The notes under the pieces: model-generated | Database searches by the model: none | What the model saw: the letters and a program-made list of their open reading frames with translations, nothing else | Told to the model about the DNA's origin: nothing | Translations under genes and position numbers: made by a program | Source: Haloarcula sp. H-GB4 | Lineage (GTDB): Archaea > Halobacteriota > Halobacteria > Halobacteriales > Haloarculaceae | Reading direction: 5' to 3' | Assembly (NCBI RefSeq): GCF_030848575.1 | Contig: NZ_JAVDDX010000006.1 | Location: forward strand, 62,001 to 126,000 | Length of the DNA stretch: 64,000 nt | Shown: positions 15,218-51,244 of the stretch, in pieces | How positions within the stretch are numbered: position 1 is the first letter of the stretch | Layout of the letters: each line of letters starts with the position of its first letter

Positions 15218-16414
15218 ATGAATGAGTCTGAGTCGTTCTTCGGCAATCCAGATCCAATCTTTGCTGACAAGGAACTCCTTAGAGTGAGCCACCTTCCGGA
15301 GAGTGACCGGATAATCGGACGCGACACTGAACTTCGAAAGCTCGCTAATGCTATCAAAGACGCCCAGCGGGGAGACACCCCGAACAACGTATTGGTTTAC
15401 GGAAAAACGGGTACGGGCAAAAGCCTGTGTTCAAAGTATATAACTCGCGATCTCACTGAGGCGGCCGCCGACAACGGTGTCAAAATCGGCGTCGCATACG
15501 TGGACTGTTTCCAAGAATCAACTGAGACACAGACAGTCCGCACAATTGCTCAAGCACTCAATAGCCCAGAAGAGACAGAAATAACAGTTCCACATACTGG
15601 GGTGAGTACCTCGGACTATTACCGCCGTCTCTGGGATATTCTTGATGCACGGCTGGATGTTGGAATCATTATTCTTGACGAAATAGATAAATTAGAAGGT
15701 GACAACGTTCTAATGCAACTGTCACGCGCTGCCGAAGCAGGCAAGGTGACAGAAAGTACTCTTGGTGTGATTGGTATCAGTAACAAAATCCGTTACAAAG
15801 ACTCTCTCAATGAACGAGTTAAATCAAGCCTGTCGGAACGAGACTTCGTTTTCCCACCGTATGATGCGAACCAGCTCCGTGAGATCCTCAAATCTCGTTC
15901 CGATGCTTTTCGTGAGGATGTTCTAGATGAAGATGTTATCCCGAAAGTAGCAGCACTCGCGGCGAAGGAACATGGAGACGCGCGCAAGGCAATCGATATC
16001 CTCCGATATGCAGGGGAGATTGCCGACGAACACGACGATGATACAGTAAAAATCGAATATGTTGATGAGGCGCATGACCGTGAAGAGCAGGCTAGACTTT
16101 CTGAGCTTATTGCCAAGCAGCCAGAACACTCAAAACACCTGTTACAGTCGCTTGCGTTACAAGTACAGGATACGTCAGGTGAGAACCCTCCAATCCCAAC
16201 GAAAAGCGTCTATTCGGTGTATGAACGCCTTTGTGAGAGCAATGGGGTCGATCCACTGAAAGTGCGACGTGTTCGGGATCTACTCTCTGAACTTGCGTTT
16301 CTCTCGCTCGTTGAGCAGGAGCGCAAAGGGCGGGGAAAGGGCAAGGGTGCACACACAGTAAACCAACTTGTTGACGACCCTGAAGTTGTGATTAAAGCGT
16401 GCAAGTCAGCGTAA
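15218..16414 (+). CDS. orc: Orc1/Cdc6 replication initiator
   Basis: 398 residues. AAA+ ATPase: Walker A GKTGTGKS (about residue 63), Walker B IIILDEIDKLE (about 145), the sensor region around GVIGISNKIRY, and a C-terminal winged helix (from about 310, with SVYERLCESNGVDPLKVRRVRDLLSEL). It would recognise the ORB repeats just upstream and load the replicative helicase. Position and orientation relative to the repeats fit an initiator that serves its own origin. The replicon therefore probably fires from here. Promoter lies in the AT-rich repeat-4 area. Confidence 0.95.
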   Translation: MNESESFFGNPDPIFADKELLRVSHLPESDRIIGRDTELRKLANAIKDAQRGDTPNNVLVYGKTGTGKSLCSKYITRDLTEAAADNGVKIGVAYVDCFQESTETQTVRTIAQALNSPEETEITVPHTGVSTSDYYRRLWDILDARLDVGIIILDEIDKLEGDNVLMQLSRAAEAGKVTESTLGVIGISNKIRYKDSLNERVKSSLSERDFVFPPYDANQLREILKSRSDAFREDVLDEDVIPKVAALAAKEHGDARKAIDILRYAGEIADEHDDDTVKIEYVDEAHDREEQARLSELIAKQPEHSKHLLQSLALQVQDTSGENPPIPTKSVYSVYERLCESNGVDPLKVRRVRDLLSELAFLSLVEQERKGRGKGKGAHTVNQLVDDPEVVIKACKSA

Positions 16415-22752: not shown

Positions 22753-23268
22753 CTAATCTTCGTCATCATCGTCGGACTGGTCGTCGGAGTCATCATCGTC
22801 GGACTGGTCGTCGGAGTCAGAGTCTGAATCAGGATCGCCGGCGTCATCCTCATCAGAGCTTTCGTCACCTTCGTTCTCGTTGGAGCTGTCGTCAGAAACC
22901 GCATCCTCTGAATCCGAATTGTCGTCGGTGTCGGTTTCGTTGAGATCGTCGGTGTCGGTTTCGTTGAGATCGTCGGTGTCGGTTTCGTTGAGATCGTCGA
23001 TATCGATGGTCTCACTTGGGGTGTCGACAGTCAAGCTATCGGATGCACTATCATCCGAAAAGGGCGCTCCGAGCGAATCAAATAGCGATAGTCCGCTGAG
23101 TGACTCTATTCCCATCTCACTCGTCCACGTCGTAGTACTGTTCGTTTCCTGATCAGCATCTGCTGTTTGGTTCGCGGGCGCGGCGCTGACGGAACCAGTT
23201 GCTGCTGCGCCTGCACTCAATATGAGCAGGGTAGCGAGGGCGATACTGGCTATCTTATTGCGTGGCAT
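22753..23268 (-). CDS. Secreted highly acidic repeat protein (copy 1 only)
   Basis: 171 residues from ATG 23268. A Sec signal peptide (IASIALATLLILSAGAAATGSVSA) is followed by a Ser/Thr-rich segment, three exact copies of the 8-residue unit DDLNETDT (24-bp DNA repeats at 22924-22995), and a C-terminal run of Asp/Ser/Glu. No membrane anchor follows, so it is secreted or peripherally bound. NET sites could be N-glycosylated. The gene has its own operator boxes (23303, 23328) and has no counterpart in the second transposon copy. A cation-binding or surface role is possible; function unknown. Confidence 0.72.
   Translation of the reverse strand: MPRNKIASIALATLLILSAGAAATGSVSAAPANQTADADQETNSTTTWTSEMGIESLSGLSLFDSLGAPFSDDSASDSLTVDTPSETIDIDDLNETDTDDLNETDTDDLNETDTDDNSDSEDAVSDDSSNENEGDESSDEDDAGDPDSDSDSDDQSDDDDSDDQSDDDDED
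22924..22995 (-). repeat. Three 24-bp tandem repeats in the acidic protein gene
   Basis: Unit GTCGGTGTCGGTTTCGTTGA plus GATC, three identical copies in tandem, in frame, encoding DDLNETDT repeats. The exact identity points to recent expansion by slippage or unequal crossing over. Confidence 0.85.
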
Positions 23269-49056: not shown

Positions 49057-49379
49057 ACGTTGTACCTGTGCACACAGCCGGTGCGACGTGCTCGGCGATC
49101 GATACAATTCAATCGAAGGGGGTAGCGGGGAAAACGATTGGCGTTCAACCGTCGAATCCAATCTTATGCATTAAGACTACCAGTCTCAACTACTCCGCTC
49201 AAATTCTGTCCTTTGACAAACAACATAATTCTAGGACTCTAAGATAGGCCGGCTAGTTCGTGGGAATTCAGAGGTCTCAGCGGTTACGATAGCTCGGAGA
49301 CGATTCCATGTCTGACTATATTTTATATAGCATGAACCTATAGGATATACCTATATGGTACAGTTACAGGGTGGTAATG
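49057..49379. other. Non-coding: regulator promoter, transposon right end, parA promoter
   Basis: Holds the operator-like box (49141-49158), TATGCATTAAGA (49165), the transposon right end AGTCTCAACT (49182-49191), then an AT-rich stretch with the upstream iterons of the partition operon. No gene seen. Confidence 0.7.
49326..49358. repeat. Upstream iterons of the partition operon
   Basis: CCTATAGG at 49337 and CCTATATG at 49350 are 13 bp apart; a weaker TATAG lies 13 bp further upstream (49326-49330). They sit in the promoter 20-55 bases before the parA start, so binding there would both repress parAB and mark the centromere. Confidence 0.65.
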
Positions 49380-50252
49380 ATGTCTGAGACACGCCGTGCA
49401 GCACTATACCTCGATAAAGGAGGTACCGGAAAAACAACAAGTGCGGTTCATTTGGGCGCTGCACTCAATGACCTCGGTTATAGTGTGCTTGTAGTAGACT
49501 TAGCCGGGAAGCAGGGGGATTGCGCTGATGCACTCGGCATTCTCGGAGAGGTCCAGACTGACATTGAGAATGAGGACGACTTCCCAAATGTTGCGACAAC
49601 GATGGGAAGTCGGTGGAGCGACGTAGCAGATATGGTCGGAGACGAGGAGGCTGTTGACCGACTGGTCTACCAGACTAACGCCGGCATCGATCTTATTCCG
49701 GCACACCCGGATCTTGATGGACTGGATGCAGACCTAGGCAACATTGATAACGTTGACGAACGGTATAATCGACTCCAAACATTCTTAGACGAGTTTGTGG
49801 AGCCAGTCAACCGGTGGGACGTAGTCCTACTGGATATGCCAGGACTCGCTAACAATATCACTTATAATGGCCTTTGGGCCGCTCAGAACGTTGTGACACC
49901 AGTCAGTATGGGTAGTTTCGAGCTTAAGCAAGCGCGCTCGCTTGAAGATGATCTTGAACAGATCCGCTCGAACTACGGGCAAGAAGTACGACTAAGAATG
50001 CTCATTCCGAATCTGTTTGACAGGCGGACTACGCTTCATGCTGACCTCTTGGAACGCTTCGAGAACGAGTTCGCGGATCTCGTGGCTCCAGAATTTGTCG
50101 TTGACTCACAGCAAATTCGGACCGTCACTGAAGCGGGTCAAACGTTGTTTGATCTCAATGAAGATAACCTTCTAAAGACTGGCAAAGATGCGCGTGATGC
50201 ATTCCTTGCAAACGCTGAAGAACTGTACTACCGACTTGGAGAGAGCCAATGA
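49380..50252 (+). CDS. parA: ParA-family partition ATPase
   Basis: About 290 residues from ATG 49380 (ATG 49377 equally possible). Deviant Walker A KGGTGKTTSA (about residue 14), VLVVDLAGKQGD (Walker A' region), and Walker B VVLLDMPGLANN. The final part (SYGQEV-like RLRMLIPNLFDRRTTLHADL) fits ParA/Soj. It moves plasmid copies apart with a centromere-binding partner. The small downstream gene overlaps by 4 bases and iterons lie on both sides of the pair. Confidence 0.92.
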   Translation: MSETRRAALYLDKGGTGKTTSAVHLGAALNDLGYSVLVVDLAGKQGDCADALGILGEVQTDIENEDDFPNVATTMGSRWSDVADMVGDEEAVDRLVYQTNAGIDLIPAHPDLDGLDADLGNIDNVDERYNRLQTFLDEFVEPVNRWDVVLLDMPGLANNITYNGLWAAQNVVTPVSMGSFELKQARSLEDDLEQIRSNYGQEVRLRMLIPNLFDRRTTLHADLLERFENEFADLVAPEFVVDSQQIRTVTEAGQTLFDLNEDNLLKTGKDARDAFLANAEELYYRLGESQ

Positions 50253-50644
50253 CAGATAACGATATTGATGAGAGATTAGATGAACTGCGAGAAGAGGAAT
50301 CAACCGGAAACCGCTTAGATCGCGATGATCCCCAAAATCAGGCCTCTTTCGTTGATGTCCTTGTTGACGCGCTTGACTCAGCCGAAGCTGGGGACCTCTC
50401 TGAGACAGTTACTGCATATGACCCGACACTTGCAGCTGTCCTTCAGGCACTTGAGGAGGATGATCGAATGGACGATATATTTAATCAATTACGTGAGGCG
50501 TACGACGGAGAGTCAGGCCTCACAGACGAAAGCCGAAGCGCTATTATTCGACTAGCCGTCCGTGTAGGGCTTCAAGAGGGTACTGACGATGTCATGGATG
50601 ACCTCAAGCAAGCCGTTGAAGATCGCCGGACAACCACCATCTAG
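50249..50644 (+). CDS. Probable ParA partner (centromere-binding) protein
   Basis: 131 residues, very acidic N-terminus (ERLDELREEESTGNRLDRDD) and a helical C-terminal half (SRSAIIRLAVRVGLQEGTDD) that could form a small DNA-binding or dimer unit. Not a classical ParB; no HTH is obvious. The 4-base overlap with parA and the iterons directly after its stop make it the likely adaptor that binds the 13-bp repeats. Assigned by context. Confidence 0.7.
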   Translation: MTDNDIDERLDELREEESTGNRLDRDDPQNQASFVDVLVDALDSAEAGDLSETVTAYDPTLAAVLQALEEDDRMDDIFNQLREAYDGESGLTDESRSAIIRLAVRVGLQEGTDDVMDDLKQAVEDRRTTTI

Positions 50645-50678
50645 TCCCTGTTAGTACAGCTGTAGCCAATGGAATTGT

Positions 50679-50724
50679 CCTATACCTAAACCCTATAGCA
50701 AAAACCTATAGTTTTAGCCTATAG
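50679..50724. repeat. Four downstream iterons at exact 13-bp spacing
   Basis: CCTATA at 50679, 50692, 50705 and 50718, the last three as CCTATAG. The strict 13-bp period, and the same motif and spacing upstream of parA, point to a centromere (parS-like) array bracketing the operon. Confidence 0.75.
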
Positions 50725-50832
50725 CTTGAGACTCAGGGTTGAAGTCGTGTAACCGCTTCTTGAAAACTATCACTAACCTCGGTCACGTAACCAATTCTCT
50801 GGAAAATTCCGATCTACACTCTTTCAAGATCA

Positions 50833-51126
50833 CTACACAGAAAGCTCGTCAATCGGAGCCAGATACTGATTTTCCCACTCTCGATGGCCTTGGAGGTCTC
50901 GCACGCCACGCCTTGTCAGTCGATACTTGTTTCCTCGTCCGTTCTTATCCATTTTCTTGATAAGCCCTTTCTCAGCCATTTCGTCCAGTTGCGGATACAC
51001 ACGTCCGACTGTGATCTCCTCGGCATAGTATTCCTGCAGTTCGGCGGTGAGTTCTGTCCCCATCGGATCGTCCATGCCTGCGATCACGACTAGCATATCA
51101 CGTTTGAAACTATTCACATCGTACAT
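50833..51126 (-). CDS. PadR-family winged-helix regulator (beside partition operon)
   Basis: About 97 residues from ATG 51126 (MYDVNSFKRDMLVVIAGM). PadR blocks: RDMLVVIAGMDDPMGTEL, VGRVYPQLDEMAEKGLI and the wing RGNKYRLTRRGVRDL. Paralogue of the gene at 14145, next to the origin. The upstream frame extension is unconserved. It may link partition and replication gene control. Confidence 0.83.
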   Translation of the reverse strand: MYDVNSFKRDMLVVIAGMDDPMGTELTAELQEYYAEEITVGRVYPQLDEMAEKGLIKKMDKNGRGNKYRLTRRGVRDLQGHREWENQYLAPIDELSV

Positions 51127-51244
51127 CCTGTCAAACCAAACGCCACGTCCGAGAGTCATAATCTTATTTATTCGCACTCATCTGAACCCGCCTTGGTAGC
51201 CTCCTGAAGCGCTGTATCGACCCTTTACCTTACACACAATGTTG

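Follow-up and report, generated by a model that had tools for sequence, protein, structure and literature searches.

An ATPase gene of the ParA type, a small gene that overlaps its end and two clusters of short tandem repeats (iterons) around the pair raise the question of whether this locus is a plasmid partition operon and, if so, what reads the repeats. The window is the whole stretch of 64,000 nucleotides that was analysed, and the features of the locus are collected in Table 1. We consider it likely, with a probability of roughly 0.8, that the operon is a type Ib/SegAB-like ParA partition system of haloarchaeal plasmids in which, by analogy with known systems, the predicted binding of the iterons by the small partner would make them both centromere and operator.

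Table 1. Features of the probable par locus and of its contig (window coordinates unless prefixed C6, the contig that carries the operon)
Feature	Position	Strand	Basis or proposed role
GTCTGAC conserved element, just 5' of the parA TATA box	49310..49316	+	38/72 non-redundant loci
TATA-box-like TTTTATATA, putative parA promoter	49321..49329	+	sequence
Upstream iterons, two 13-bp units starting CCTATA (49337, 49350)	49337..49362	+	sequence; candidate operator and centromere part
parA, deviant Walker A ATPase (KGGTGKTT)	49371..50252	+	Pfam AAA_31, E 3.8e-20; other ParA/MinD models
Partner gene, 131 aa, predicted ribbon-helix-helix (RHH) adaptor, ParB-like in role	50249..50644	+	no curated family
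Codon of R22, candidate arginine finger	50312..50314	+	Arg in 91/99 members; by analogy with PMC5016525 (available part)
Codons 52-57 (ETVTAY), for the beta-strand predicted to read DNA through residues 53, 55, 57	50402..50419	+	co-variation with iterons
Codons 96-111, for the predicted helix B of an RHH fold (consensus in the family, DRSExLRLAxRxGL)	50534..50581	+	helical in both AF2 models
Downstream iterons, four 13-bp units starting CCTATA (50679, 50692, 50705, 50718)	50679..50730	+	candidate centromere
Orc1/Cdc6 gene	15257-16363 = C6:77257-78363		same contig as par operon
Second Orc1/Cdc6 gene	C6:46198-47298		same contig, beyond the window

The parA operon and its iterons

The window ParA carries its KGGTGKTT motif close to the N-terminus, with no space for an N-terminal helix-turn-helix (HTH). 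Three start codons are candidates (GTG 49371, ATG 49377 and ATG 49380), the last of which agrees with the annotated parA start on plasmid NZ_CP010533, where the partner is 85% identical. The partner gene overlaps parA by 4 bases and its product matches no Pfam or NCBIfam family at that family's cut-off. No ParB family was matched by the window partner at E 1, and the 25 families that are listed as matches of 99 members (for Pfam, 25 of 56) do not include one; the sequence-only reading was of a ParA accompanied by a small, non-ParB protein of 131 aa. Beside the downstream iterons, a PadR-like regulator (E 6.8e-10) is encoded at 50833-51177 on the minus strand, and the NZ_CP010533 relative has a gene annotated as a helix-turn-helix regulator at the corresponding place beside the operon.

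All six copies of CCTATA claimed by the sequence-only reading are confirmed on the plus strand, with a spacing of exactly 13 bp inside each cluster. A possible third upstream copy at 49324, which that reading had allowed for, did not hold: it reads TATATA, with one mismatch to the 13-bp pair pattern, and was not counted because it belongs to the TATA-box-like TTTTATATA. The downstream array, the larger of the two (four units versus two), is placed 3' of the partner stop codon, and the upstream iterons sit, by sequence, downstream of the TATA box and ahead of the parA start codon. Neither in 200 simulated 64-kb windows nor in 2000 simulations of 2 kb of local sequence did a hexamer recur identically four times in a row at a single period between 8 and 25 bp; the longest runs were of three, in 23/200 and 4/2000, respectively. 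The pattern YCTATA-N7-YCTATA, allowing at most one mismatch on both strands, gave 7 matches versus a shuffle mean of 0.23 and a maximum of 2, and the exact pair CCTATA-N7-CCTATA matched four times across the organism's own genome (4,189,745 bases in 15 contigs), all four at the par operon, with 0 matches for the backwards control. The CCTATA hexamer by itself is weaker evidence, with 14 copies versus 8.2 expected, a count equalled in 2 of 100 shuffles. One further run of four hexamers in the window is part of a 24-bp tandem direct repeat that starts at 22922.

The contig is 135,147 bp long and carries two Orc1/Cdc6 genes, and is for these reasons probably a plasmid. Plasmid iterons often are replication sites, and with two Orc1/Cdc6 genes on the same contig one might read the repeats as origin sites for Orc1/Cdc6 or a Rep protein. 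However, the nearer of these genes is ~33 kb away (C6:77257-78363 versus 111337), an annotated Orc1 is a neighbour in 2 of 17 related plasmid stretches (L012 and L026), the rest being without one, and the iterons co-vary with residues 53, 55 and 57 of the partner, as discussed below. We regard an origin as highly improbable, and continue with the iterons as a candidate centromere and operator.

Relatives of the operon and the periodicity of their flanks

A tblastn search with the window partner matched 17 plasmid records, in all of which the feature under the match is annotated as 'hypothetical protein', and the window partner gave no match in phage records. Using a partner profile of 16 rows, matches were obtained at 102 places in 84 of the 391 genomes of the window's class. 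Three weak profile matches outside the class (E 0.004-0.006; 294 genomes) were rejected as members; no ParA was seen there, and by eye in the ORF lists these proteins resemble RHH-type antitoxins adjoining PIN-type toxins. Pattern-filtered scans of genome contigs and of viral contigs yielded no relative. The 115 loci considered here consist of the 17 plasmid stretches minus L018 and L019, in which no ParA is annotated ahead of the match (L018 is seemingly the same place as L083), plus 100 of the 102 genome places, two short fragments being omitted. These loci are partly redundant, with nine pairs of identical partners, and include the window itself (L036). On plasmid NZ_CP082285 (L018), the gene before the partner homologue encodes a family B DNA polymerase.

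Of the 115 loci, 113 yielded the partner; 108 of these have a co-directional ParA directly upstream, and in five no ParA was detected. The latter (L083, L110, L121, L122 and L124, with L122 at a contig end) are possibly orphan binders or broken operons. The partner starts between 8 bases before and 3 bases after the end of parA in 101 of the 108 loci, including 47 with a start 4 bases before it, 17 with 8 before and 32 with 1-3 after. The ParAs have a median length of 285 aa, and 94 of the 108 contain KGGxGKT[TS], located at residue 11-16 in 92 of the 94; among the 12 listed ParAs that lack this motif, five have KGG variants and the others are cut off, mis-started or partly visible. Upstream of parA, GTCTGAC is present within 150 bp in 38 of the 72 non-redundant loci with upstream DNA, and the gap between it and a TTTA-type box is 5 bp in 18 of these 38; the same sources have 74 copies in total when both strands of their 319,583 bp are counted. 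We take this to be a promoter element, which perhaps serves a common host factor.

The flanks of each operon (70 bp upstream and 90 bp downstream) were compared with 100 shuffles for their best period, which was reached by at most one shuffle in 70 of the 108 loci. A non-redundant set of 73 loci was obtained at less than 85% partner identity from 96 loci, leaving out the truncated L053 and L078. Within this set, 49 loci are periodic (p <= 0.01), with periods of 6 (9 loci), 12 (11), 24 (6), 13 (19), 26 (2) and 7 (2) bp and none other, versus 4 of 37 in a control set of long window ORFs, among them parA (periods 9, 9, 6 and 15). The other 24 of the 73 are without significant periodicity, and 49/73 may be low because autocorrelation at a single locus misses arrays that are visible by eye, as in L011. 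Iterons are thus present at orthologous operons, and the sequence-only reading of a par operon with a small partner and iterons is supported both by these periodic flanks and by an iteron sequence that goes with three residues of the partner's predicted strand.

When each side is tested by itself (p <= 0.05), periodicity is seen in the upstream flank of 46 of 72 loci and in the downstream flank of 46, with both flanks periodic in 32; the tests on 72 loci leave out L081, the contig of which begins inside parA. On average, the two sides of an operon have 8.64 hexamers in common, versus 3.46 when the downstream side is that of another locus (8.64 was reached in 0/500 shuffles) and 2.65 with DNA 200-290 bp beyond the partner. 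Therefore, the same repeats are found on both sides of the operon.

The partner should repress its own operon, because the upstream iterons stand between the TATA box and the start codon. This placement would equally suit iterons that are merely operators, with the partner an RHH autorepressor and the true centromere elsewhere on the replicon, the more so as type Ib RHH centromere binders repress too according to the available part of PMC5016525. But the four-unit array stands behind the partner stop codon, the downstream flanks are periodic in those 46 of 72 relatives and have words in common with their own upstream flanks, and no further CCTATA-N7-CCTATA pair is present anywhere in the genome. 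We hold an exclusive operator role to be improbable and prefer iterons that would act as centromere as well as operator.

Partner residues 53, 55 and 57 and the repeats

When the relatives are classed by residues 53, 55 and 57 of the partner, the words repeated in the flanks are CTATAG with Trp or Tyr at position 57, CGTATA/GTATAC for T-S-R, GCAAAC/CGCAAA for T-A-R, GATACA/ATACAG for N-T-R, GGTTAC for N-N-R and CGATAC/ATACCG for S-G-R. Arrays near other haloarchaeal parA genes, for which the sequence-only reading proposed a search, are indeed found, but its CCTATAG is one subfamily's version, others having GTATAC, GTTTGC, GATACA or GGTTAC. Clustering of the DNA alone recovers these classes partly: it groups 9 of 9 T-A-R loci in one cluster and yields a CTATA cluster of 20 loci that is purely aromatic at residue 57, but T-S-R and N-T-R merge in one cluster of 27. 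By a threshold for CTATA-richness that was set by the analyst, and with three loci of other residue 57 left out, 20 of 24 aromatic-57 loci are CTATA-rich versus 0 of 46 Arg/Lys-57 loci. The four exceptions (L075, L084, L086 and L101) are the 4 of 18 T-S-W loci that lie outside the CTATA cluster.

The pooled autocorrelation of the flanks has lags of 13/26 in the Tyr57 class, 12/24 with no lag 6 in the Trp57 class, 6/12/18/24 in the T-S-R and T-A-R classes, 6/12/24 in the S-G-R/K class, 13/26 plus 6, 7, 19 and 20 in the N-T-R class, 13/26 plus 6 and 20 in the N-N-R class, and 7/14/21/28 in the H-A-R class (L115 and L117). The period of 13 bp noted in the sequence-only reading stands for the operon of the window and for the Tyr57 and N-T-R classes but is not universal, as relatives have 12 (6+6) or 7. 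Exceptions among the loci with a clear call are L016 (Tyr57) with 12, L101 (Trp57) with 13, L107 (T-S-R) with 13 and L120 (N-N-R) with 12. Since lag 6 and lag 7 are both enriched in the Tyr57 and N-T-R classes, which have period 13, the unit resembles two half-sites and not one site per 13 bp; the 13-bp lattice looks like 6+7 and the 12-bp lattice like 6+6. The Trp57 class is without lag 6, and therefore has one conserved hexamer per 12 bp. The two H-A-R loci have a 7-bp lattice like the heptads of omega, yet are nested within the 13-bp N-T-R clade.

With partner identity controlled for, residue 57 ranks first of 125 single columns in its association with the iterons, residue 55 is 18th and residue 53 is 95th; in a variant that uses all 5-mers rather than the repeated 5-mers, column 57 comes second to column 67. 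The triplet 53/55/57 goes with iteron similarity at a partial r of 0.336, the top of 56 alternating triplets and matched by 2 of 5000 random triplets; the triplet was chosen after the table of class words, so this is not a blind prediction, and the ranking over all columns serves as the guard. Using the difference at 40-50% partner identity as the measure, 14 of 1804 random triplets equal 53/55/57. In that range, iteron similarity is 0.513 for pairs with the same triplet (n=109) versus 0.061 for pairs with different triplets (n=294). The corresponding values are 0.643 (n=169) versus 0.373 (n=25) at 50-85% identity and 0.195 (n=78) versus 0.142 (n=762) at 30-40%, and at 20-30% the triplet gives no gain (0.059, n=16, versus 0.084, n=1099). 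At the level of sequence, this suggests that the three adaptor residues go with the repeat that is read, as RHH geometry predicts.

Shared ancestry is strong in this family, because k-mers from within parA go with partner identity (rho 0.41) more closely than flank k-mers do (0.26); for DNA 200-378 bp downstream the correlation is 0.006. Ancestry alone could in principle account for the association of strand and iteron, if plasmid families drift in both and there is no recognition code, and both the correlation with parA-internal k-mers and the small number of independent switches are in keeping with this. Aromatic 57 shows 4 changes, and CTATA 6, on a partner tree from which columns 50-58 were left out; the independent pairs for aromatic 57 number 1-4, too few for a test. 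On the other hand, the association survives control for partner identity and is strongest at the alternating positions predicted for an RHH strand, and nested switches coincide, for example that of H-A-R with the 7-bp lattice inside the 13-bp N-T-R clade. We therefore think it unlikely that ancestry alone is at work. A recognition code is part of a wider and tentative proposal, to which we give somewhat less than even odds, of one large unnamed family of haloarchaeal plasmid RHH centromere binders with its specificity in residues 53/55/57 and a tunable segrosome pitch, with a spacing of 6, 6.5 or 7 bp between half-sites. In the code so proposed, an aromatic residue 57 would read CTATAG and Arg 57 would read hexamers with G outside, such as GTATAC; Ala 55 would go with GTTTGC, Asn-Thr-Arg with GATACA and Asn-Asn-Arg with GGTTAC. 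If true, switches at residues 53/55/57 would found new plasmid incompatibility groups.

Fold of the partner, proposed mechanism and known systems

The window partner weakly matches RHH_1 at residues 94-105 (E 0.48). For the 99 members at E 0.1, RHH_1 is found among the Pfam matches of 4, below two unrelated families, and the archaeal RHH regulator aCcr1 is the commonest weak match in NCBIfam (8 of 99, best 0.0013); of ten members scanned, three (L020, L044 and L049) match aCcr1 at residues 78-104. AF2 models were obtained for the window partner (80 rows, pLDDT 83) and for that of L098 (72 rows, pLDDT 82), which are 24% identical to each other. In window numbering, both have a low-confidence N-terminus with a short helix, followed by helices 34-47, 59-70, 74-84, 96-111 and 113-130; residues 48-58 are without helix and no strand is assigned, single chains being unable to display a two-chain ribbon. 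R22 is within the low-confidence N-terminal stretch, with pLDDT below 50 at residues 20-29. We take helix 96-111 to resemble RHH helix B, in which case the models predict an extra helix between RHH helices A and B. The RHH fold that we infer is supported mainly by the co-variation and by helix B.

The best aligned chain for the window model is that of the SegB-DNA complex (7dv2_A) with a Z-score of 6.0, which falls in the range that the comparison tool calls common, and an rmsd of 3.4 over 76 of 76 chain residues; the next Z-score is 4.2. Foldseek alone ranks SegB eighth (E 4.3) with nothing below 0.001, and a viral fold library gave no match below 0.001. The model of L098 did not recover SegB, its best match (Z 3.3) being unrelated, and searches of PDB sequences with family profiles returned unrelated chains only, with no SegB at E <= 10, no ParG and no omega. 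Judging by a fold match in one of two models, without a sequence match, the partner may be kin to SegB. If so, the operon could belong to a plasmid-borne archaeal SegAB lineage, not to type Ib, with the partner a divergent SegB; in the available part of PMC12284271, SegB reads the 13-bp TCTAGA-S-TCTAGA (two hexamers, lag 7) and segA and segB overlap, which would suit such a descent along with the top match of the window model. Against it stand the result for L098, the lack of a SegB chain in the profile searches and, as described in the same part of that source, SegB sites that are dispersed over the chromosome and not tandem at the operon. We find descent from SegAB to be rather unlikely, and keep to a system that resembles both type Ib and SegAB.

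In the mechanism that we propose for it, the partner would be a dimeric RHH centromere-binding protein, in which strand 52-57 pairs with that of the second subunit, and the paired strands would enter the major groove at each hexameric half-site, the half-sites being 6 and 7 bp apart within the 13-bp iterons. Dimers would sit side by side on the downstream (four units) and upstream (two units) arrays to form the partition complex, and the presumably flexible N-terminus with R22 would touch ParA, leading to ATP hydrolysis and to the moving apart of the plasmid copies. Type Ib RHH centromere binders, as portrayed in the available part of PMC5016525, are small proteins that are also repressors and have a flexible N-terminus with an arginine finger. 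Activation of the ATPase in pSM19035 needs contiguous repeats (PMC9499535, available part), and the superhelical wrap of SegB, which resembles that of omega (PMC9178275, available part), is a precedent for a helical wrap on the iterons, an idea put forward in the sequence-only reading.

What appears to be new, as judged from the sequences, is a haloarchaeal family version of the already known ParA/RHH partition, and no haloarchaeal family of this kind is among the literature matches listed, which are mostly freely readable papers. The upkeep of the many large plasmids of haloarchaea has seemingly been little studied, the literature, as far as its available parts go, centring on SegAB of Sulfolobales and on pNOB8, and the family, with matches in 84 of the class's 391 genomes, provides a concrete candidate. 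If the proposed role is true, the family could account for the coexistence of several plasmids in a cell, supply stability cassettes for haloarchaeal vectors and offer a natural data set for the DNA recognition code of RHH proteins.

Among the known systems, type Ia ParABS with its HTH-containing ParB, a CTPase, differs in that no ParB-CTPase/HTH partner is among the family matches listed here. The parC1 and parC2 sites of pB171 par2 reportedly flank its operon, much as arrays do here, though that system is bacterial. In the available part of PMC4270457, parC1 and parC2 are named as two centromere sites around parA and parB. The AspA-ParB-ParA cassette of pNOB8 from Sulfolobus is likewise an archaeal plasmid partition cassette that contains a ParA, but it has three genes, a 470-aa ParB and a 23-bp palindrome (PMC5120986, available part). 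SegAB of Sulfolobales is similar in its archaeal ParA-like ATPase, its RHH protein (RHH being predicted here), encoded by a downstream gene that overlaps that of the ATPase, and its 13-bp site of two hexamers, with sites in the promoter region, as given in the available part of PMC12284271. The overlapping gene order is shared by our family, with 4 bases in the window and 4 or 8 bases in 64 of 108 loci. Unlike the chromosomal action and dispersed palindromic sites of SegAB, the exact iteron pair is confined to the operon in its own genome here; the predicted specificity also varies among subfamilies, and no sequence match to SegB was found.

The ParAs of type Ib systems are not known to carry an N-terminal HTH. 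In the present family too, a Walker ParA without HTH stands just before the gene of a small adaptor. The family differs from type Ib in its mostly 12- or 13-bp lattices with arrays that flank the operon at either end, in the predicted extra helix between RHH helices A and B and in having no ParG or omega match among PDB sequences. Omega reads 7-bp repeats (PMC9499535, available part), and two members of the family have a 7-bp lattice. The type Ib systems described in the available part of PMC5016525 (ParF-ParG of TP228, delta-omega of pSM19035 and pCXC100) resemble the present one in a ParA with a small adaptor, in the conserved arginine of an N-terminus that is flexible there and presumably so here, in the RHH partner, dimeric there and predicted here, and in short repeats by the promoter, which are the centromere there and correspond here to the upstream repeats of the window (49337-49362) and to upstream flanks that are periodic in 46 of 72 relatives.
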